From a virus, in IMG/VR virus record IMGVR_UViG_3300005264_001571, positions 1 through 25,285 of that record: a stretch of DNA of 25,285 bases; one strand, given 5' to 3'. Every line of letters starts with the position of its first letter. Position 1 is the first letter of the stretch. Made by a program: the position numbers and the translations under genes. The notes beneath the pieces were generated by a model. That model made no database searches. It was not told the DNA's origin and worked only from the letters and a program-made list of their open reading frames with translations. Below are positions 911-20,335 of this stretch, one piece after another.

Positions 911-2053
911 ATGGGATGGCTGAGTGGTTGGGCATATAGGCGAGAAATTACGATAACTGAGCAGTCGGGGAGCACGCTCACGGATTATCAGGTTAGGATA
1001 GAGCTTAACTCCTCGAACTTTGATTTTTCAAAAGCGAATAGTGATGGGAGCGATATACGTTTTACAGAAGATGATGGGACTACTTTACTCCCTTATTGGA
1101 TTGAAAAGTGGGATAACACTAACGAAGAGGCTGTGATTTGGGTTAAAGTCCCTTCAATTCCAGCGAACGGAGAGACGACGATTTACCTCTACTACGGCAA
1201 TAGTGGAGCGGAGAGCGAGAGCGACGGGGATGCAGTATTTGAGCTTTTTGATGACTTCGAGGGAACAGAATTAGATACGAGTAAGTGGGATTATGTGGGT
1301 AGTGTCTCAGTTTCGAACGGAGAACTTGACTTGTTAGGTCTTACATCAGTAGAAAATACAGAAGTAATATCTAAAACAACAATTGACGAACCATGTATTA
1401 TCGAATTTAAAGTTAGAGATGGGACTCAAACAAGTGCTAACTATTATGTTGGTCTTGGGTTCCCACAAGGCCCATGGGATACATCAAACTGGTTTGTAGT
1501 AATGCGTGCACGCTATGCAACTGGAGATTATCCATCAGTTAGATTTAGAGGCTCAAGCTCTGGAGAAACAGAAATAGTAAGAAAGTATTGGGATAATACT
1601 AAAGTAAGAGTAATAATTAAAGATAATAAAGCTGATTATTGGGATAGTGATGGAGATTCATACTCAGGGAGGGATTTTTCTGCAGATAGTATAACATTCC
1701 CAACAACATTTGCACTATTTAATCATCATGCTGGCACACAAGCACATGCGTATTTTGACTATATCTTTGTCCGCAAGTATGCCGAGCAGGAGCCAACCGC
1801 CAGCGTAGGGAGCGAGGAAGTAGCCATATTTACTATAAGCGGGACGGTAAAACTGCCGGATGGAACACCGGTAGAGGGAGCAAAAGTAATATCGATTAGG
1901 GAAGATACTTATGAAATCGTAGATACAACGACTTCGGAAAGCGACGGGAGTTACTCTGTGAATGGTTTCCTCTATTCAGGAAACACAGTAATCGTAATCC
2001 CCTCATCATCAGACCAGAACGGCGATATTAAGTGTCATATTCAACCAGCATGA
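911..2053 (+). CDS. DUF2341 / lectin-like adhesin with carboxypeptidase-regulatory-like C-terminus
   Basis: A 380-residue beta-rich protein, probably the receptor-binding or fibre-tip protein. Residues ~5-105 match the DUF2341 pattern (WAYRREITI, YWIEKWD, EAVIWVKVPSIPANG, IYLYYGN). Residues ~110-300 look like a concanavalin A/LamG-type sandwich (FDDFEGTELDTSKW, ending YFDYIFVRKY). Residues ~305-370 look like a carboxypeptidase-regulatory-like Ig fold (ISGTVKLPDGTPVEGAKV, SDGSYSVNG). Such domains are known from cell-surface adhesins and fibres of archaea and their viruses. The start has a GGTGAT ribosome site. Within the lectin-like part, about 1330-1770, codon choice shifts to A/T-ending codons (ACA, CCA, GCA, CAT) compared with both flanks, suggesting a swapped-in segment. 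Domain calls are from memory of the families. Confidence 0.75.
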   Translation: MGWLSGWAYRREITITEQSGSTLTDYQVRIELNSSNFDFSKANSDGSDIRFTEDDGTTLLPYWIEKWDNTNEEAVIWVKVPSIPANGETTIYLYYGNSGAESESDGDAVFELFDDFEGTELDTSKWDYVGSVSVSNGELDLLGLTSVENTEVISKTTIDEPCIIEFKVRDGTQTSANYYVGLGFPQGPWDTSNWFVVMRARYATGDYPSVRFRGSSSGETEIVRKYWDNTKVRVIIKDNKADYWDSDGDSYSGRDFSADSITFPTTFALFNHHAGTQAHAYFDYIFVRKYAEQEPTASVGSEEVAIFTISGTVKLPDGTPVEGAKVISIREDTYEIVDTTTSESDGSYSVNGFLYSGNTVIVIPSSSDQNGDIKCHIQPA

Positions 2054-2062
2054 GGTGTTTAA

Positions 2063-3151
2063 ATGGCTTATACTCCTCCTTCACCAAATAACGTCGAGCT
2101 GATTATCGAAACAGGTTATACTCATCCGAATAGCTCGAATGTTGAGCTAATACTTTACACAGGTGAGGAGGGAGTAGAATATACTATCTCTCTTTCAGAT
2201 ACAATACAGCTAAGCCATATCAATAAGAAAGATTTAAGCTTATATCCGCAAGAAGCCCTAACTCTAATTGACAGTTTATATTATTACTCTATCTTAACTA
2301 AACTTTTAAGCGATGATATACTATTATACGAAACGATAGATAAGCAGGCTGATTTGTATAATACTATACTCAGCTCGATTAATATAAGCGAGAGTAAAAA
2401 AGATAAAATCAGCCTCTCCCTCGATGATGCTATTACTTTAAACGAGCTTTTATACTACGCATCAGCCTTTTACGAGCTGTTACAAGATAATATAAGCCTG
2501 CAGGAGAATTTCAACGCTGGCTTTTTATTTGAGCAGGCGATTAGCGATATAATCTCGATAAGCGAGCAGTTAAACTTGCTTATCGGCGTGAACCCGAAAG
2601 ATAGCCTCTTTACCCTCGAAAAAGCGATTTATGATATTAATACTAAGCTGAAAGAAGAAGTTAGCTTAAGTGAAAGTGCCGAGATTAAGAGAGTATTAAT
2701 CACACTATTAAGCGAGGTAATAGCTCTTAATGAGATAGCCAGTTACTTATACTCCGCTCTCATGGAGAAAAAGGAAGCCTTAAACTTATCAGAAAAACTA
2801 ATAAACCGCTTAAAATTAACGTTGTCCTCCACACTTGCTTTAAGCGAAGACTTAATTAAAAGCTTAAGTATTATCTGCAGGGACGATATTACTATTTCCG
2901 AGCTGAGTAAATTAAGCTTAGTCGCCTCGTTAATTACGGATATATTATTAAGCGAGAACGTTAAGAGAGATACGAAAGTAAAGATTTTATCCCTGCTAAA
3001 GATAGACGAAAAAGTCGTTTCCTATCTCGGTCTTATCCCTCACGAGGAGAGGACGCTTTACTCGCTAATCGTCCTTTCGAAACTGCTTAATTCAGATATT
3101 GCTACGCTTAAGGAATTATATTCTTTAATTAAGAAAGAGGAGGAATTATAA
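2063..3151 (+). CDS. Tandem-repeat protein of the fibre region, leucine/serine-rich repeats
   Basis: A 362-residue protein built almost entirely of repeats. Residues 3-18 and 19-34 are a direct duplication (YTPPSPNNVELIIETG and YTHPNSSNVELILYTG). From about residue 38 to the end there are roughly 14 copies of an 18-24 residue unit with core D-x-I-x-L-x-E-x-L, for example DDILLYETI, DNISLQENF, DDITISELS, TDILLSENV. No enzyme signature, signal peptide or membrane segment is visible. Two copies of the same unit open the tail hub protein at 12851, linking this protein to the tail. The start follows GAGGTG, and the stop overlaps the portal start as TAATG, implying translational coupling. A fibre shaft or tail-tip spacer is likely; no named family recognised. 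Confidence 0.65.
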   Translation: MAYTPPSPNNVELIIETGYTHPNSSNVELILYTGEEGVEYTISLSDTIQLSHINKKDLSLYPQEALTLIDSLYYYSILTKLLSDDILLYETIDKQADLYNTILSSINISESKKDKISLSLDDAITLNELLYYASAFYELLQDNISLQENFNAGFLFEQAISDIISISEQLNLLIGVNPKDSLFTLEKAIYDINTKLKEEVSLSESAEIKRVLITLLSEVIALNEIASYLYSALMEKKEALNLSEKLINRLKLTLSSTLALSEDLIKSLSIICRDDITISELSKLSLVASLITDILLSENVKRDTKVKILSLLKIDEKVVSYLGLIPHEERTLYSLIVLSKLLNSDIATLKELYSLIKKEEEL

Positions 3152-4422
3152 TGAAGCTAAATTTAAAAGGATTATTTAAGCGGAAGCAAGCCCTAAATCC
3201 GCCCGTTGAGCTAAGAAAATCACAGACATCAGATATAAAGCAGACAATCTTATCTACCGCTATAAGCAGGCTGAGCCCTGAGCTTATGGTTTTGTGTGAG
3301 AATGCTTACCTAAGCGAGCCGCTAACGAGGAAAGGCATACTTAAACGCTCACACGATACTTTTGAAAGATGGCTGAGGATAGAGAGCGAGGACGAAAGAG
3401 TAAAAGAGATTTTTACTGAGCTCGAAAAAAGGACGGACTTAAAAAATAAGCTTATCGATTTGCTTAAGAACGCTATGATATACGGCGTCGGCTACCTCGA
3501 AATAGTCTATGAGAATGATACTAACCCTGCAAGTGAGGAGCCACCTCAAACAGGGATTATTAGCCTCGAATTAATCGACCCGAAGACGATTTTCCCCGTT
3601 TATCAAGCCGACCCTGCTAAGGAAGACTACGGCGAGATATTATACTATCAGCAGGAAATTAAAGCTATGCCTAATAGAGTGATTAAGCTCCACCCGAGCC
3701 GTATTATCGAATTTAAATATGATACGTTAGCCGATGGAAGAAGACCTGTCGGCGTTATAGAGCCAATGCTATACGTAGTTGAAGCAAAGATAACGCTGGA
3801 TAAATCAGCCGGGAGAATTCCAAAAAAGGTGATAAGCCAAATCATAACGGCAACGCTGAAAGGAGATGGCGTTACTCAGCAGTTGCTGGATGAGTGGGCT
3901 AAAGCTTTCGCTAAGATGGAAGATGTAGGGCGGTTCGTAACCCCTGAAATGGTAGAAGTTGATGTAAAAGAGGGAGGGAAGGCTCTTGATATAAAGCCCT
4001 ATTCCGAGCATCTTATCTACCAGATAGCGGGCGGAGTTGGTGTCCCTTATACTGTGCTTTTAGGAGCTGGAGCAGGGACGCTAAGCACGAGCGAGACTAA
4101 CTTAAGAGATTATTACTCTGATTTAAGAGACTTACAAGTAAGATTTACACCTATTATAAAGAGGCTCCTCGACTGGGAGTTAGCCGTCGAAGGAGTAAAA
4201 GCCGATTACGAAATCGTCTGGAATGAGATTTACGCCGACGAAAAGAGCGAAGCTGATATTTTAGCCACAAAAGCAAGAGCAATAGATTTACTTATTAACG
4301 ATGGAATAATCGGCGTGAATGAAGCAAGAGAGCTCTTAGGCTTAGAGCCTTTACCTGAGTTCGAGGAAGAAGCCGCCTCTTTTGGCACACCAATAAGGCG
4401 AGGTAGATATAAGCATGGTTAG
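3151..4422 (+). CDS. Portal protein (DUF1073-like)
   Basis: A 423-residue portal subunit, which would form the dodecameric ring at the head vertex through which DNA passes. Diagnostic stretches are MIYGVGYLEIVYE (~110-122), the strand SLELIDPKTIFPVY (~138-151), a long helix region at ~210-260, and GAGAGTLSTSETNLRDYYSDLR (split here as GAGAGTLSTSETN then LRDYYSDLR, ~307-330). The latter resembles the conserved C-terminal portal pattern seen in DUF1073 proteins, followed by a helix of the type LQVRFTPIIKRLLDWEL. The length is normal for a small portal. A strong GAGGAGG site precedes the ATG. The 3' end overlaps the MuF-like gene by 8 bases, the usual portal-MuF order in caudoviruses. Confidence 0.85.
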   Translation: MKLNLKGLFKRKQALNPPVELRKSQTSDIKQTILSTAISRLSPELMVLCENAYLSEPLTRKGILKRSHDTFERWLRIESEDERVKEIFTELEKRTDLKNKLIDLLKNAMIYGVGYLEIVYENDTNPASEEPPQTGIISLELIDPKTIFPVYQADPAKEDYGEILYYQQEIKAMPNRVIKLHPSRIIEFKYDTLADGRRPVGVIEPMLYVVEAKITLDKSAGRIPKKVISQIITATLKGDGVTQQLLDEWAKAFAKMEDVGRFVTPEMVEVDVKEGGKALDIKPYSEHLIYQIAGGVGVPYTVLLGAGAGTLSTSETNLRDYYSDLRDLQVRFTPIIKRLLDWELAVEGVKADYEIVWNEIYADEKSEADILATKARAIDLLINDGIIGVNEARELLGLEPLPEFEEEAASFGTPIRRGRYKHG

Positions 4423-10682: not shown

Positions 10683-10954
10683 AATTAATAGCACGACAGC
10701 TTTTACGAAATAAGCCTTACTTTTTTGTCGGCTCTAACTCAGACGCTTTTACTATTTCTCTAAAGTTACAAGCGGTTATAATCGCTAAATACTTCGGTAT
10801 TTCTCCGGTTGAAGTTCTAAACTGGTCTTATTCTGAAATGCAAGAATTCTTAGCTTTAATCGATGTAATCAGTGAAACGGAGAGTAATAATAAAGAGAGA
10901 GATAAGACGGTTTATGATTTAAAAGAGATAGAAGGCGAGAGAGATGGCAAATGA
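10413..10954 (+). CDS. Tail assembly chaperone, long frameshift form (lambda gpGT equivalent)
   Basis: Join of 10413-10679 and 10679-10954 by a -1 slip, giving about 180 residues. The extension begins VKLIARQLLRNKPYFFVG, continues with helices (FTISLKLQAVIIAKYFGI, VLNWSYSEMQEFLALIDVI) and ends in a charged tail reading DLKEIEGERDGK. It has no start codon or ribosome site of its own, and it exactly fills the 260-base gap before the tape measure gene, overlapping its start by 11 bases. In siphoviruses the short and long forms wrap the tape measure protein before tube assembly; that function is transferred by homology of arrangement. Confidence 0.78.
10673..10679 (+). promoter_or_regulatory. Programmed -1 ribosomal frameshift site (A AAA AAG)
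   Basis: The heptamer A AAA AAG is in the correct phase (X XXY YYZ) relative to the short chaperone frame and sits immediately before its TAA stop. This is one of the most efficient known -1 slippery sequences. The -1 frame downstream is open until 10952. A weak bulged stem (10691-10697 pairing with 10727-10732) lies 11 bases downstream and might stimulate the shift. Confidence 0.8.
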
Positions 10955-14353: not shown

Positions 14354-15052
14354 ATGGTTAAGCGGCTAATTGCGGAATTAATAATAAGAGGGATATTAAG
14401 GGAAATCCCGGAAGAGGATGTAGTTAAGGAAACAGAAACTTCCGCAGATTATACTATAACTTTAAATGGAGTAATATATTCTTCCGGAGCATTAACTTAT
14501 GCCTCATCCTCTCAGGTAAATGATAAAACTCTTCAATTTGAGCACGGGATTTGGAATAATGCTGCAGGTACAGAAAATAAAGAAGCAAAGAAAATCTTAT
14601 TTAGCCCAGACCTACCAGAGACTTTTGAGATGACCGGGACGCTAAGTGTTTCGTGTGATGATAGTAAAGTAGAAGGAATAGGAATGGCTGCTCCTTATCT
14701 CTTTACCGGATTCTCTGATAATGGAGATATAAGCTCTACGACAAATAAAGTAGGAATAATCGTTGATGTAACAACTGATTGGATAAAAGTATTTTGTACT
14801 GCTTTTGGGATAAATAGCTCAGCAATTGAATTATCACAACCCGTATCTCAATCTTTCACATGGAAAATCCAAAAGACAGCAAGCGGATGGTATGTGGAAA
14901 TATCAAATGGGGTTACTACCGTATCAGCGGAAGGGTCGGGGACTATCGACCCGGAGCAGTTTATAGCTCACTATGGAGAAATGCTTACATCCTTCCCTCT
15001 AAATGAGAGAGCAACGACTACGTGGATATTAGACTCAGTAACGGAGTTATAG
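14354..15052 (+). CDS. Unrecognised beta-sandwich tail-tip protein
   Basis: A 232-residue protein with a GAGGTGG site 6 bases before its ATG and 9 bases after the hub stop. After a short helix (KRLIAELIIRGILREI) the rest is strand-rich: YTITLNGVIYSSGALTY, TLQFEHGIWNNAAG, FEMTGTLSVSCDD, FTWKIQKTASGWYVEISNG, and ATTTWILDSVTEL at the end. The alternation is compatible with a lectin-like (concanavalin A or LamG type) sandwich, but no diagnostic motif is visible. Position after the hub suggests a tail tip, distal tail or carbohydrate-binding protein. The family is unknown to me. Confidence 0.6.
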   Translation: MVKRLIAELIIRGILREIPEEDVVKETETSADYTITLNGVIYSSGALTYASSSQVNDKTLQFEHGIWNNAAGTENKEAKKILFSPDLPETFEMTGTLSVSCDDSKVEGIGMAAPYLFTGFSDNGDISSTTNKVGIIVDVTTDWIKVFCTAFGINSSAIELSQPVSQSFTWKIQKTASGWYVEISNGVTTVSAEGSGTIDPEQFIAHYGEMLTSFPLNERATTTWILDSVTEL

Positions 15053-15057
15053 TAAAA

Positions 15058-15354
15058 ATGATGCTTAAAAAGTATAATCCAGCAAAGAACTTAAAAAAGC
15101 GGCTCCCATTCTGGATAGCCGGGCTTTTAGTTTTTATTTTCCTTTTTAAGCACGAGTTTATTTTCGCTCTTGTTTGGGCAATTATCTTTATTTTAATCGA
15201 CGAAAGAATAAAAGAGGGCTATTGGGTAAAGAAGAGCGATTTTAAAAAGCCGCTCACGCATGAGTTTCTTATTATAATCACGATTATTATAAATATAATT
15301 ATAGTTTTTATGAAAAAAATAAGAAGAGCTCAAAAAATAGAAAATAATTTATAA
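15058..15354 (+). CDS. Small membrane protein at the end of the late operon, possible holin
   Basis: A 99-residue protein; ATG 15058 (or 15061) follows GGAGTT, while an upstream in-frame GTG lies inside the previous gene. Three hydrophobic segments are visible: LPFWIAGLLVFIFLF (~16-30), FIFALVWAIIFILI (~34-47) and FLIIITIIINIIIVFM (~69-84). Between them and at the ends it is very basic. Size, membrane layout and place at the end of the structural operon would suit a holin or other egress protein, but no family is recognised. The gene converges on the small four-cysteine gene; their last codons overlap by 6 bases. Confidence 0.6.
   Translation: MMLKKYNPAKNLKKRLPFWIAGLLVFIFLFKHEFIFALVWAIIFILIDERIKEGYWVKKSDFKKPLTHEFLIIITIIINIIIVFMKKIRRAQKIENNL
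15332..15348 (-). terminator. T-rich terminator of the minus-strand operon
   Basis: On the minus strand the bases right after the stop of the four-cysteine gene read AAATTATTTTCTATTTTTT, with runs of four and six T. It lies inside the end of the facing membrane-protein gene. Confidence 0.45.
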
Positions 15355-15498
15355 ATCACTTCTTATTTTACTAATCTCTTTTTTTGGCTCGTATTCTATA
15401 CATCTGCCTTTTTCATTAACTTCAATATAATCTAAATCACACCAACCACCTTTATTAAACTTACAATCTTTCCTCAAACATCTAATTGCCACGCCCAT
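15349..15498 (-). CDS. 49-residue four-cysteine protein, probable metal-binding
   Basis: A short gene with ATG at 15498-15496, overlapping the upstream stop as TGATG. Cysteines at residues 7, 12, 20 and 33 follow the pattern C-x4-C-x7-C-x12-C within CLRKDCKFNKGGWC and GRCIEYEP. The spacing, the G-G-W-C turn and the final C-x-x-Y-x-P resemble small Cys4 proteins seen in archaea and their mobile elements; metal binding is inferred. The start region (GTGATGGGCGTGGC) is nearly identical to that of the next gene upstream, so the beginnings of the two genes may be related by duplication. It is the last gene of the minus-strand operon. Confidence 0.72.
   Translation of the reverse strand: MGVAIRCLRKDCKFNKGGWCDLDYIEVNEKGRCIEYEPKKEISKIRSDL
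15361..15385 (+). terminator. T-rich terminator of the late operon
   Basis: TCTTATTTTACTAATCTCTT followed by five more T starts 6 bases after the last plus-strand stop. It contains a T7 run and lies inside the facing gene, giving overlapping convergent termination. Confidence 0.5.
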
Positions 15499-15689
15499 CA
15501 CACCCTCGCTAAAAATTTCTCTAAAAGCACTTTGAATATCCCTCTAACCTCATCCTCATCTGAAAATCCTTGTATTGTTCCCTTTGTCATTAGTTCGCCA
15601 TCCTCAACGTAGTAAAATTGAAAAATACTCTGCATTCTATCCCCTTCCTTCCTCTTCAAGATAAGAGCTTTCTCTTCAGCCACGCCCAT
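15498..15689 (-). CDS. Unrecognised 63-residue protein
   Basis: The ATG at 15689 follows GGAG; a GTG three bases upstream is possible. The sequence has two strands (ALILKRKEG; SIFQFYYVEDGELMTKGTI) and an acidic helix (SDEDEVRGIFKVLLEKFL). It starts MGVA like the four-cysteine gene that follows it, and its start lies inside the upstream gene, so translation is coupled along the operon. No family recognised. Confidence 0.6.
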   Translation of the reverse strand: MGVAEEKALILKRKEGDRMQSIFQFYYVEDGELMTKGTIQGFSDEDEVRGIFKVLLEKFLARV

Positions 15690-16023
15690 CACGCTCCTTT
15701 ATTATTTTATCTAACTTAACCTGTCGCTGTAAAATTCTCCTTGCAATCTGCTTTGCGAGTAAAGTATCTATGCCCCAAATCGTTATAGAGCATACATGCG
15801 TATCAAACTCATTGATAGAAATATTGACCCTCGCTAAGATAAACTCTTCACTTGTTCTTAATAAATACATCAAATCTGCCTCGTTGCTATCTCTATTGTC
15901 ATATAACTTCTTTTCAAATACTATCTCAAACTCATTAATACCTTTCTCTACAAGATATTCTTTCAAATGCTTATAAGGGGTTTTTTCAGCAGCTCCTATC
16001 CTCCAACCTGTCCTTACTTTCAT
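15676..16023 (-). CDS. Unrecognised 115-residue alpha/beta protein
   Basis: Starts at an ATG behind AAGGTGAT and overlaps the upstream stop (ATGA). The N-terminal half has a helix (YKHLKEYLVEKGI) and strand (EFEIVFEKKLYD), then a helix (EADLMYLLRTSEE), a strand pair (FILARVNISINEF; HVCSITIWGI) and a basic helix (LLAKQIARRILQRQVKLDKI). No catalytic motif is visible. Its place in a promoter-driven set of small genes suggests an early host-interaction role, which is inference only. Confidence 0.62.
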   Translation of the reverse strand: MKVRTGWRIGAAEKTPYKHLKEYLVEKGINEFEIVFEKKLYDNRDSNEADLMYLLRTSEEFILARVNISINEFDTHVCSITIWGIDTLLAKQIARRILQRQVKLDKIIKERDGRG

Positions 16024-16223
16024 ACCTTATCACCTTCCTTTTTATCTTTTTCTAGACCTAAAACGAAAGCCCGGATTTCTCTAAGCGACATAAAAATAGT
16101 ATTACTTTCTCCGTTCGTTAAAATATAAAAATAGCGCCCCTTCTTATCTTTTATCCGCTTAAGCTCGAAACCTTTTGCTTCGAGCTCTTCTTTTAAGAGT
16201 TTAAACGTCCTTCCTCTTTTCAT
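16020..16223 (-). CDS. Unrecognised small basic protein
   Basis: A 67-residue protein. The ATG at 16223 is chosen over an upstream one because it follows GGAGGTGAG and makes an ATGA overlap with the preceding gene, as elsewhere in this operon. Sequence: a helix (TFKLLKEELEAKGFEL), a strand hairpin (YFYILTNGE; TIFMSL) and a helix (LREIRAFVLGLEK). It resembles small nucleic-acid-binding or regulator-type proteins only in charge and size. No family recognised. Confidence 0.6.
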   Translation of the reverse strand: MKRGRTFKLLKEELEAKGFELKRIKDKKGRYFYILTNGESNTIFMSLREIRAFVLGLEKDKKEGDKV

Positions 16224-16756
16224 GCCCTCACCTCCTCCGAGGCCCATGGAGGAGTAAGCCACCTCTCCTTATCTTTTTCAAATTGGGCTTTCGCCCACTC
16301 GACGAAGTCCGGCGGGAGGTTATATATATATGAGTTGGGCCCTACCTTGATTAAAACATCATCCTTTTTTAGCCCTTTTTCAGCGAGATACCACTTGACT
16401 TTACTTGCCACTCTGTAACTATTTATATTATAGCCCTCCTTTTTCAGGAGAGCGGTTACCTGAGCAATAGTAAGCGGCTTAAAGCCGAGCTTTTTCGCCC
16501 TCCTCGGGTCTGATATATATTTTAGATATGATTGATAGTATTCTAATGCTCTCTTATAATATGCTTTTACGATATAGTGAGCAATGCCTTTCCTGTCCAG
16601 CCACTCTTCAAGCTCTCTTATATTTATTTCATGCAAATCTCCGAGCTCTTCCTCAATTATTTTAAGCTTATTGATTATTGCAGTTGTATATCCTGCTGGC
16701 TTCTTTCGTATGCTTTGCATGTAAAGAGAAAACGAAAAGAGTTCGCCGTTATTCAT
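16220..16756 (-). CDS. Probable DNA-binding protein with two helical domains
   Basis: A 178-residue protein with ATG at 16756. Residues ~15-75 (YTTAIINKLKIIEEELGDL, IRELEEWLDRKGIAHY, AYYKRALEYYQSYLKYI) look like the SAM-like core-binding domain of tyrosine recombinases, but no catalytic R...HxxR...Y part follows. Residues ~90-150 (KPLTIAQVTALLKKEGYNI, SYRVASKVKWYLAEKGL, VGPNSYIYNLP) have the shape of a winged helix, with a recognition-helix-like second helix. The last 25 residues are Trp-rich (FVEWAKAQFEKD, WLTPPWAS). A regulator or accessory DNA-binding protein is a reasonable guess; no named family. Confidence 0.6.
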   Translation of the reverse strand: MNNGELFSFSLYMQSIRKKPAGYTTAIINKLKIIEEELGDLHEINIRELEEWLDRKGIAHYIVKAYYKRALEYYQSYLKYISDPRRAKKLGFKPLTIAQVTALLKKEGYNINSYRVASKVKWYLAEKGLKKDDVLIKVGPNSYIYNLPPDFVEWAKAQFEKDKERWLTPPWASEEVRA

Positions 16757-16760
16757 GCTA

Positions 16761-17183
16761 TCACTCTCCTAATAGATATAAAAATAAATTTAGCCTCTTT
16801 TCGTCTATCCCTCGTCCTTCAGTAATATCCTTTAAAAATTCTCTGAATTCTTCGAATATTCTTGTTAGTTCTTTATCAAGCTCGTTAGCAGCATTCTGTA
16901 TATGCTGTGCATCGCTAAAAGTATCACTAAAACTGTCGCTTTCAGCTTCTATTTCCTCTGCTGTCTTATAAATCTCTGCTATTTTATTAAAAAACCAACT
17001 TTGCTTTTTTACTTTAGTTTTAGCGATACTTATATCTTTTAAGTTAAAATTCTGCAAGAGTACTAAAAGCTTATCCTGTAGTTCTCCTATTGCCATAGAG
17101 CCGTCGAGGTGGATTTTTACCTCGACCTCGCCATTCTCTATTAGTTCCCTTGTTACTGTTTCTATAAATTCTTTACCGTTCAT
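16761..17183 (-). CDS. Unrecognised acidic helical protein
   Basis: A 140-residue protein; the ATG follows GAGGAGGTGG and overlaps the upstream stop (ATGA). The first third has a strand pair (VEVKIHLDGSMAIG) and a helix (LQDKLLVLLQNFN). From ~residue 65 it is helical and acidic (FNKIAEIYKTAEEIEAES, AQHIQNAANELDKELTRI, FEEFREFLKDI). The very acidic, soluble character is common among small inhibitor proteins of viruses, but nothing in the sequence names a target. Confidence 0.6.
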   Translation of the reverse strand: MNGKEFIETVTRELIENGEVEVKIHLDGSMAIGELQDKLLVLLQNFNLKDISIAKTKVKKQSWFFNKIAEIYKTAEEIEAESDSFSDTFSDAQHIQNAANELDKELTRIFEEFREFLKDITEGRGIDEKRLNLFLYLLGE

Positions 17184-17353
17184 TCTTCCACCTCCTCAAA
17201 ATCTACCCCGAGAAACTCATAGCCTTCTGCCACGTATGCTTTAAGCTCCTCTCTCCACTGTTTTCTTAAGCTTTCTTTATCTGCTGCTTTTATTTCTACC
17301 ACGAACTTTTCGCCTTCAAACCCATCCCAAAACTTTAATTTTGCCTTCCACAT
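17180..17353 (-). CDS. Unrecognised 57-residue protein, first gene of a minus-strand operon
   Basis: The start at ATG 17353 is preferred because GGAGGT lies 8 bases before it. The longer frame, from ATG 17401, would begin directly against the TATA box of the promoter at 17389-17421, upstream of the expected transcript start. The protein has beta strands (WKAKLKFWDGFEGEKFVVEI) and a helix (DKESLRKQWREELKAYVAEG), then an acidic end. It resembles small ribbon or ferredoxin-like folds. No family recognised. Confidence 0.6.
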   Translation of the reverse strand: MWKAKLKFWDGFEGEKFVVEIKAADKESLRKQWREELKAYVAEGYEFLGVDFEEVEE

Positions 17354-17388: not shown

Positions 17389-17421
17389 ATTTAGCACTCA
17401 TACTATATAAACTTTTCTATT
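17389..17421 (-). promoter_or_regulatory. Archaeal promoter P1, twin of the one at 20303-20335
   Basis: Read on the minus strand: AATAGAAAAGTTTATATAG, then T, then ATGAGTGCTAAAT. AGAAAAG is BRE-like and TTTATATA is the TATA box; transcript start is expected about 25 bases downstream, near the end of the repeat. The same 33 bases occur at 20303-20335 with a single mismatch. It would drive genes from 17353 down to 15349. Confidence 0.75.
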
Positions 17422-17429
17422 CTTCCCAA

Positions 17430-17997
17430 GCTTATTATAGAGCAGAGTATTAATAATACTAAGCCGAGTTATTATTAACTCATTAGGTAAGCCTAATTTT
17501 GCAAAAATTTTGTAGTTTTTTCTCTGCAGAGAGCATATCTCAAAAAAGTTAATAATTCAGTTAATAATAGATTTTGATTATTAACTGCTTATTTTATTAT
17601 CATTATGATAATATATAATAAAGATAATAGTCATAAATTCAATTAATAATTGAGTTAATAATTAAAAAGACAGAAGTTATTATTAACGAGGCAGTTAATA
17701 ATTAAATTAATAATTAATTAATCTTATCTTATCTATCTTATCTATCTCTATTATCTAATAAGCTATTAGCTATAAGCTATATATTAGCAGCTAATTAATA
17801 ATTAATTTAATAATTAATTAATAGATATATTATATATAAGATATAGATAGAAGCTAAGCTGAAAAGTCGATATTAAATAGATAGTTAATAATTAATATAC
17901 AACATAATTGTTGTACAACAAATTTGTTATATTTTTGGTTATTTCAAGGGAGATATTATAAGAACGAGTTAATAATTAATTTAATAATTAATTAAGA
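17430..17997. repeat. AT-rich repeat region, candidate replication origin or partition site
   Basis: This is the only long gene-free stretch in the window. AGTTAATAAT occurs at 17547, 17559, 17653, 17693, 17883 and 17967 on the plus strand. It occurs inverted at 17471-17480 and 17577-17586, and with one mismatch at 17679-17688. TTAATAATTAATTTAATAAT-type runs recur at 17701, 17793 and 17971. Palindromes include 17446-17460 (AGTATTA-A-TAATACT), 17466-17481 (GAGTTATTATTAACTC) and 17521-17532 (TCTCTGCAGAGA). A TATC/TTATC microsatellite fills about 17722-17756. Clustered iterons, palindromes and low-melting DNA next to a DNA-binding protein gene are standard marks of origins or centromere-like sites; function is inferred. 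Confidence 0.65.
17898..17928. promoter_or_regulatory. Three overlapping palindromes, probable protein-binding site
   Basis: TACAACA-TAAT-TGTTGTA (17898-17915), TTGTTGTACAACAA (17908-17921, perfect) and AACAAATTTGTT (17917-17928, perfect) overlap one another. This TTGTTGTAC-type sequence is unlike the surrounding TTAATAAT repeats. Stacked inverted repeats are typical binding sites for ribbon-helix-helix dimers, and such a protein is encoded 70 bases away. Confidence 0.55.
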
Positions 17998-18771
17998 TTA
18001 AGAAGAGCGTATGAGTTTAAACACTCCTCGCCTCAGCACATCATCTTTGTGATGTTGATAAATCAGGTTCTCGGATGCTTTACGTATTATAAGCTTATCT
18101 GTCTCCTCGATTATCTCCCACTCCTTAACTGCTCCTCGGATTATTTCCTCATCGATTAGCCCGTCCTGCTGCTCAAGGAACTCCCTCATCCCGATGGCGA
18201 TGATATTTTTACTTATTAAATATTCCTCGATTAGCCCGGGCCACTCCTTGCTGGTGAGCTTGGCATTAATAAGTTTCTCCCTTATCGCCAGCTCCCGCTC
18301 TTTTTTCTCGATGTGCTCTTTTAGTGCTTTCAGCTTCGCCTCCTTTTCTTTTAATAATGCCTCCCACTCTTTTAGCTCCTGCTCTTTCTGCTTTAATCTA
18401 ACTTCTAAGATTCTTATTGTCCGCTCCTTCTTTTTGATACTGCCGTCTTTGCTTTTATATTTCGCTATATCATCGCTCATAGAGTTAAGGAGCAACGTCA
18501 TCGAGTCGAGCGTTTTCTTATATGCTTTCGCTTCCCGCTTTACCGCCCGTGCCGCAAGTTCATTCTCTTTCGCTTGTATGAGGAGAGTAGAGAGCTCTTT
18601 TTTATATTCTGCAAGAAGAGCTTTATTATCAATATTATTATTAGAAAGATAATCTTCCACTGCTTCAGTAACGAGCTGGCTAATGCTTTTCCCTGTCTTT
18701 ATTGCCATTTCTTTTAACTTTCTCTTTAGCTTTCTTTTTGTATTTATGCTCATTATAGTCATATCTTCCAT
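17998..18771 (-). CDS. Ribbon-helix-helix protein with long coiled coil, next to the origin-like region
   Basis: A 257-residue protein from the ATG behind AAGGTGG (an in-frame GTG at 18780 lies within the ribosome site). Residues ~5-45 fit a ribbon-helix-helix DNA-binding fold: a basic strand (MSINTKRKLKRKLKEMA), then GKSISQLVTEAVEDYLSN. Residues ~50-175 are one long charged coiled coil (IRILEVRLKQKEQELKEWEA, LKEHIEKKERELAIREKL). The last ~80 residues form a separate mixed domain (WPGLIEEYLISKNIIAIGMR; IDEEIIRGAVKEWEIIEETD). The gene ends at the edge of the iteron region, which it may bind. An RHH head on a coiled-coil arm suggests a partition, tethering or origin-binding role; this is inference, and no named family is recognised. 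Confidence 0.68.
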   Translation of the reverse strand: MEDMTIMSINTKRKLKRKLKEMAIKTGKSISQLVTEAVEDYLSNNNIDNKALLAEYKKELSTLLIQAKENELAARAVKREAKAYKKTLDSMTLLLNSMSDDIAKYKSKDGSIKKKERTIRILEVRLKQKEQELKEWEALLKEKEAKLKALKEHIEKKERELAIREKLINAKLTSKEWPGLIEEYLISKNIIAIGMREFLEQQDGLIDEEIIRGAVKEWEIIEETDKLIIRKASENLIYQHHKDDVLRRGVFKLIRSS

Positions 18772-18792
18772 CTCGACCACCTTTTTTATTTT

Positions 18793-20302: not shown

Positions 20303-20335
20303 ATTTAGCACTCATCCTATATAAACTTTTCTATT
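20303..20335 (-). promoter_or_regulatory. Archaeal promoter P2, twin of the one at 17389-17421
   Basis: Minus-strand sequence AATAGAAAAGTTTATATAG, G, ATGAGTGCTAAAT: identical to P1 except one base. Expected transcript start is about 25 bases after the TATA centre, giving a short leader that carries the GAGGTGG of the gene starting at 20271. The ATG inside the repeat lies upstream of that start and is therefore not likely used. Confidence 0.75.

Follow-up and report, generated by a model that had tools for sequence, protein, structure and literature searches.

In the omega2/parS system of pSM19035, an RHH protein binds arrays of heptad repeats near several promoters (PMC4498918), and the RHH protein PrpA acts on the iterons of the AT-rich origin of plasmid pMBL6842, where it controls copy number (PMC7848731). 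StbA of R388 binds 9-bp repeats and needs no ATPase (PMC3098194), and Par of pSK1, as described in PMC11500499, joins a DNA-binding domain to a coiled coil in a single-protein system. In the Sulfolobus plasmid pRN1, the origin lies directly downstream of the replication operon (PMC4234260). Little is known of where archaeal tailed viruses begin replication, and the literature searches made for such origins returned none from an Archaeoglobi virus. The locus described here, in which a repeat array adjoins the gene of an RHH protein with a long predicted coiled coil, resembles parts of several of these systems.

The locus lies in a 25,285-bp IMG/VR virus record, referred to as the window at its full length, which carries genes for a phage portal protein, a Mu F-like head protein, an HK97-type capsid protein and a tape-measure protein. 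Judged by its sequence, the window is a contig of an archaeal head-tail virus with hyperthermophilic hosts. This placement follows from its capsid protein, which is 90% identical to the capsid on an Archaeoglobus sp. MAG contig (NZ_JACDNT010000021, L022/L037), from the MCM (G007) and TFIIB-like proteins (G007 and L037) of its relatives, and from BRE/TATA promoters. Terminase genes are present in relatives and absent from the window, so the window is probably incomplete. At 911-3151, two adjacent ORFs, of which one contains DUF2341, take the place of what is one 1151-aa ORF in the Archaeoglobus relative, which indicates a gene split or fusion.

The repeat array and its flanking genes

The initial annotation had described an iteron-rich AT region with nine copies of a 10-mer, six direct and three inverted, one of them mismatched. 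Our count agrees: the window holds eight exact copies of AGTTAATAAT (six direct, two inverted), all within 17,471-17,976, and a ninth at 17,679 on the minus strand (CGTTAATAAT) with one mismatch. None was found outside the region within the window. AT content does not explain these copies, because shuffles gave only 0.22 copies for the window and 0.026 for the region itself, and the composition-corrected excess is strong. The short palindromes (TCTCTGCAGAGA, TTGTTGTACAACAA, AACAAATTTGTT and TATTATCATTATGATAATA) and the TATC-type tract mentioned in that annotation are likewise present (Table 1).

The order of the array exceeds this earlier description, with 12-bp pairs, clusters and an odd palindrome. 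Twelve TTAATAAT cores lie on the plus strand and three on the minus strand (17471, 17577 and 17679), and five pairs of neighbours on the same strand have a spacing of exactly 12 bp; when the cores were placed at random, one spacing recurred that many times in 3 of 20,000 placements. Because period-4 tracts account for part of the lag-12 signal seen in relatives, we re-tested the spacing with the tract removed in the window and with core pairs only in the relative G007. Pairs and single copies group into clusters whose first sites are about 52-100 bp apart. Eight of the cores extend to the odd palindrome TTAATAATTAA (TTAAT-A-ATTAA), which occurs nowhere else in the window.

Table 1. Coordinates of the array, its neighbours and the dispersed repeats of one relative
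Feature	Position	Strand	Basis
Candidate control region (non-coding, 20% GC), the window's longest stretch free of ORFs	17402..17997		
Promoter-like BRE/TATA element AATAGAAAAGTTTATATAG for the leftward operon	17402..17420	-	
Array of 15 TTAATAAT cores	17450..17988		motif count
Perfect palindrome TCTCTGCAGAGA	17521..17532		
Cluster: tandem pair 17549/17561 (12 bp) and inverted copy 17577, CAGTTAATAAT-8 nt-ATTATTAACTG	17547..17586		
Clusters: tandem pairs 17643/17655 and 17695/17707 (12 bp each) and inverted copy 17679	17641..17717		
Pyrimidine-rich TATC/TTATC tract, directly after tandem pair 17695/17707	17723..17757	+	
Cluster: tandem pair 17795/17807 (12 bp)	17793..17817	+	
Single copy 17885, then palindromes TTGTTGTACAACAA and AACAAATTTGTT	17883..17932		
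Cluster: tandem pair 17969/17981 (12 bp), adjoining the stop codon of the RHH-coiled-coil gene	17967..17993	+	
Predicted RHH (CopG/Arc-type) protein with long coiled coil and C-terminal region	17998..18780	-	RHH models, 32% identical homologue, predicted long helices
Small genes of the leftward operon, downstream of the array	15498..17353	-	
Dispersed repeats of relative G007	L021:441-569, 1132-1282, 1787-1932, 3369-3513; L020:13658-13807		

The region is, as annotated, the only long non-coding stretch of the window, with 596 bp free of ORFs of at least 45 aa; the next such stretch, at 10,683-10,943, measures 261 bp. That second stretch precedes the tape-measure gene; since an overlapping ORF occupies this place in relatives, a tail chaperone made by programmed frameshift is possible. 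Features of iteron origins are present, namely short direct repeats confined to one region of the window and, by duplex stability, adjoining AT-rich DNA that is easily melted: 185 of the 200 least stable 100-bp windows fall in the region. The GC-skew sign change that the initial annotation had proposed to look for is absent from the region, also at third codon positions; the skew flips at ~15.3 kb and ~22.9 kb, where gene direction switches. It follows gene direction and is a weak origin test in a small viral genome. Five simple ORB-like patterns found no archaeal ORB or mini-ORB in the region, and Rfam gave no RNA family match. The family matches in the window and in the relatives read included no recognisable replication initiator, and neither a ParA-like family match nor a KGGxGK motif pointed to a ParA/ParM-type ATPase in the incomplete window or those relatives.

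Genes on both sides of the region run leftward, as had been stated. The product of the gene that ends at the array begins with an RHH domain (PHROGs CopG-like repressor, E 7e-7; Pfam RHH_1, E 6e-4), beyond which an AlphaFold model predicts a long coiled coil and then a C-terminal region. Its best RHH match among solved structures is 2kel, a weak one (E 0.008), and its profile matches include no Rep-type or known initiator family. Foldseek returned coiled-coil matches only above E 0.001, which we left unused because the AlphaFold models are single-sequence and of limited confidence (mean pLDDT 66 and 69). Searches of phages, plasmids and viral contigs, and of 57 genomes from the host order, returned no homologue; a search of 393 genomes of the phylum yielded one coiled-coil match and two chromosomal proteins with the RHH part only, which were judged unrelated.

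To the left, the first gene probably starts at 17,353 and not at 17,401, because a TATA element and a Shine-Dalgarno sequence fit the former. The motif of its promoter, AATAGAAAAGTTTATATAG, is common to the promoter at 20,332 and to promoters of relatives. The 20,332 promoter is the nearest upstream of the RHH gene and carries zero repeat copies, so that an operator over the protein's own promoter, a feature of CopG/Arc repressors, was not found there. Within the leftward operon, the protein encoded at 16220-16756 has weak DnaD/DnaB_2 and Slx4 matches and a low-confidence AlphaFold model that is helical with a small strand pair. Its positional counterparts in L037 (16982-17488) and L024 (18183-18704) are similar by eye, and it is possibly a DNA-binding or replication protein.

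The element in related viruses

The most informative relative is JACDOE010000026 (L024/L036; 23,629 bp), which is probably a complete circular genome, since its contig ends overlap by 43 bp. It was binned in a MAG labelled Bacillaceae, although its viral genes are of the window's group and of archaeal type, and the label is probably a binning error. The homologue of the RHH-coiled-coil protein in this virus (L036) has about 248 aa, is 32-34% identical, shows the same domain layout and matches CopG/Arc-like proteins at E 5e-6. The genome has one long ORF-free stretch of about 330 bp, with no more than 46 bp elsewhere. Its position matches that in the window: the RHH-coiled-coil gene ends on one side of it, and on the other is the leftward operon's promoter, whose BRE/TATA-type motif the two viruses share. 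Here, TATTACGTAATA occurs twice, 12 bp apart, in place of the window's 10-mer, and a perfect (ATCT)10 tract follows shortly after the tandem pair (tetranucleotide tract at L036 220-260). Two inverted TATTACG pairs flank the site, and 8 of the 14 genomic TATTACG copies are in this stretch.

In the 27-kb relative G007 (L020/L021), TTAATAAT forms only two close pairs. Each has a spacing of exactly 12 bp (0.005 expected per genome) and abuts a (TTTA)5 tract (L021 7578-7597; L020 338-357); the genome has no other such tracts. One pair adjoins an RHH-like coiled-coil gene (L021:7682-8245) upstream of an operon that ends in MCM. The other belongs to an inverted 83-bp copy, 93% identical, at L020:321-402 between two structural genes; this second element is corroborated by an independent contig that is 99.5% identical. 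Five non-coding repeats, each about 130-150 bp long and 81-91% identical, are also scattered over G007 (Table 1). At least two of them carry a shared AATAGAAAAGTTTATA promoter, and we read the set as a repeated promoter module.

The Archaeoglobus relative L037 carries three copies of the 13-mer ATTAATAATTAAT (0.03 expected for its 11-mer core). A 28-bp inverted repeat that precedes the RHH genes contains two of them (DNA hairpin z -8.6); the third precedes the operon corresponding to the leftward one of the window. Two promoters, including that of the RHH gene itself, have the same element of ~30 bp with ATTAATTATTAAT at 63-64 bp upstream. The genes concerned are two RHH-like coiled-coil genes at 14628-15351; neither their products nor that of L021:7682-8245 show detectable sequence homology to the window's RHH-coiled-coil protein. 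The RHH assignment in G007 and L037 is a lead, because it comes from reading the sequences and from a weak repressor match of a 50-aa L037 protein. The large, near-perfect inverted repeat at L037:14394-14542, upstream of the RHH genes and perfect over 28 bp at its core, might act in control as a stem-loop or else be a small mobile element. The same genome has a DpdA/TGT-like gene at 17609-18463 (Pfam DpdA, E 3e-10), which suggests modified deoxyguanosine in its DNA. The relatives G001, G004 and G066 stop short of the matching region and are uninformative on the array.

On this comparison, three viruses have the layout together with the 12-bp pairing and the tract; the core sequence also recurs in three, and the fourth has a different palindrome. 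Conservation in relatives, which the initial annotation had put forward as a check, thus holds for the type of site, in the matching place and beside an RHH-coiled-coil or RHH-like gene, but not for the 10-mer, which is replaced in JACDOE010000026. We take the region to be a conserved composite cis-element in which 12-bp tandem palindromes abut a tetranucleotide tract. The RHH-coiled-coil protein is its likely ligand, which would be the simplest reading of the gene linkage and of the covariation of protein and palindrome. In other viral contigs (L016 and L017), the exact iteron pair forms isolated tandems of two to three copies, with no arrays.

The same data bear on whether the region could be a non-functional AT-rich spacer whose repeats arose by slippage. 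Its AT-richness and simple-sequence tracts would be expected of such a spacer; however, the strong excess over composition-matched shuffles, the exact 12-bp pairing, and the recurrence of the layout with a different palindrome in JACDOE010000026 and of the exact core in G007 and L037 make this highly improbable.

Possible functions of the region

A reading as a viral origin or centromere, as first proposed, is reasonable because the matching region is the sole long ORF-free stretch of a complete circular relative. The region-specific repeats, the low duplex stability and the recurrence in relatives speak for it, whereas the skew, the search for ORBs and the searches for an initiator and a ParA-type ATPase do not. 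Origin and centromere are indistinguishable from sequence; the array and its gene probably form a control site for copying or keeping the viral genome. As for other candidate sites, a pac site was rejected as the terminase genes are ~4 kb distant in JACDOE010000026, and an attachment site was rejected as no tyrosine-recombinase motif was found in these genomes.

We tentatively favour replication origin or replicon control, at somewhat less than even confidence, because a circular genome requires an origin, the region is the sole long non-coding one in JACDOE010000026 and contains the least stable DNA, and the G007 element precedes the MCM operon. PrpA on its plasmid iterons (PMC7848731) and the position of the pRN1 origin (PMC4234260) serve as precedents. 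Against a unique origin stand the missing skew switch, ORB motif and recognisable initiator, and the two copies in one relative. We infer a mechanism in which the region would be the virus's main cis-acting control site, with about fifteen operators of ~12 bp bound by the adjoining RHH-coiled-coil protein. RHH dimers would sit on the odd palindrome and cooperate at the 12-bp tandem pairs, and the long coiled coils would bridge the clusters into a single nucleoprotein complex. Such a complex may make the strongly AT-rich DNA and the tetranucleotide tract next to it accessible and recruit an MCM helicase, the host's or, in one relative, a viral one; alternatively, it may limit firing by handcuffing. 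Its use would be as the replication-origin or replicon-control region of a circular genome.

The element is present at two loci in each of two relatives, G007 and L037, which is unusual for a single origin and fits operators or centromere sites equally. One possible explanation is transcription control, with the array as an enlarged operator or enhancer for the leftward operon through which the RHH-coiled-coil protein represses or activates, for example in an early-late switch. RHH proteins are mostly repressors, the PHROGs matches are to CopG/Arc-like repressors, a BRE/TATA promoter common to relatives lies at the array's left end and, as the main support, the ATTAATTATTAAT element of L037 stands at a fixed distance from two promoters. 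However, the array reaches about 560 bp upstream of the promoter, and usual archaeal operators are far shorter in reach. The 20,332 promoter, the presumed driver of the RHH gene, has the shared motif but lacks the repeats, and it is not obvious what the conserved tetranucleotide tract would do in repression. We regard transcription control as possible, though on balance rather improbable.

We consider it unlikely, and more so than transcription control, that the region is a centromere or tethering site for extrachromosomal maintenance, at which the RHH-coiled-coil protein would pair genomes or tether them to the host chromosome or membrane with no ATPase. RHH centromere-binding proteins do use arrays of short direct and inverted repeats (PMC4498918), an RHH protein gene lies beside such an array here, as in RHH-type (type Ib) partition systems (its binding is predicted), and single-protein systems exist in StbA (PMC3098194) and pSK1 Par (described in PMC11500499). 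The missing tyrosine-recombinase motif and the one circular relative make episomal persistence possible, but such persistence is a supposition for these viruses, and no ParA/ParM-type ATPase was recognised in the incomplete window or its relatives.

The region is a compact candidate origin with a named protein partner, and the relatives allow a natural comparison, since they differ in the repeat sequence but retain its spacing and neighbourhood. The RHH-coiled-coil protein and the composite element might constitute a module for replicon control that has so far not been described in archaeal tailed viruses. A single non-enzymatic protein would then both define the origin and keep genomes together, and the palindrome would vary within a fixed spacing and layout; we consider this broader proposal doubtful. 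Were RHH-coiled-coil proteins to act in this way, RHH proteins would gain, beyond their functions as repressors and partition adaptors, a part in replicon control in viruses of hyperthermophilic archaea.

Comparison with known systems

Similar to omega2/parS, the locus combines an RHH protein with short direct and inverted repeats near promoters and a possible double role in regulation and partition. By contrast, its repeat is ~12 bp and not 7, no ParA-like ATPase was recognised, and omega is small, with no long coiled coil. PrpA and pMBL6842 share with it an RHH protein and iterons in AT-rich DNA (binding is predicted here), but PrpA is an antitoxin that competes with RepB, whereas neither a Rep nor a toxin partner was recognised here. 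The likeness to pSK1 Par is a DNA-binding domain with a coiled coil, and that to StbA is the use of direct repeats with no ATPase; those proteins are of helix-turn-helix type and from bacterial plasmids, whereas here the protein is of RHH type, the element is from an archaeal virus and the array lies 3' of the gene.

Among archaeal elements, pRN1 has its origin directly downstream of its replication operon and an inverted-repeat structure, to which the large hairpin of L037 is comparable, but it has a primase-polymerase replication protein and a stem-loop, and no iteron array. SvtR, the RHH repressor of SIRV1 (PDB 2kel), which comes from a virus of hyperthermophilic archaea, is the best solved match to the RHH part, although a weak one, and is small, with neither a coiled coil nor an associated iteron array. 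Each compared family has a defining feature that is absent here or lies beyond sequence evidence, so we assign the element to none of them; by analogy, it most resembles an RHH-bound iteron array in how it would work.
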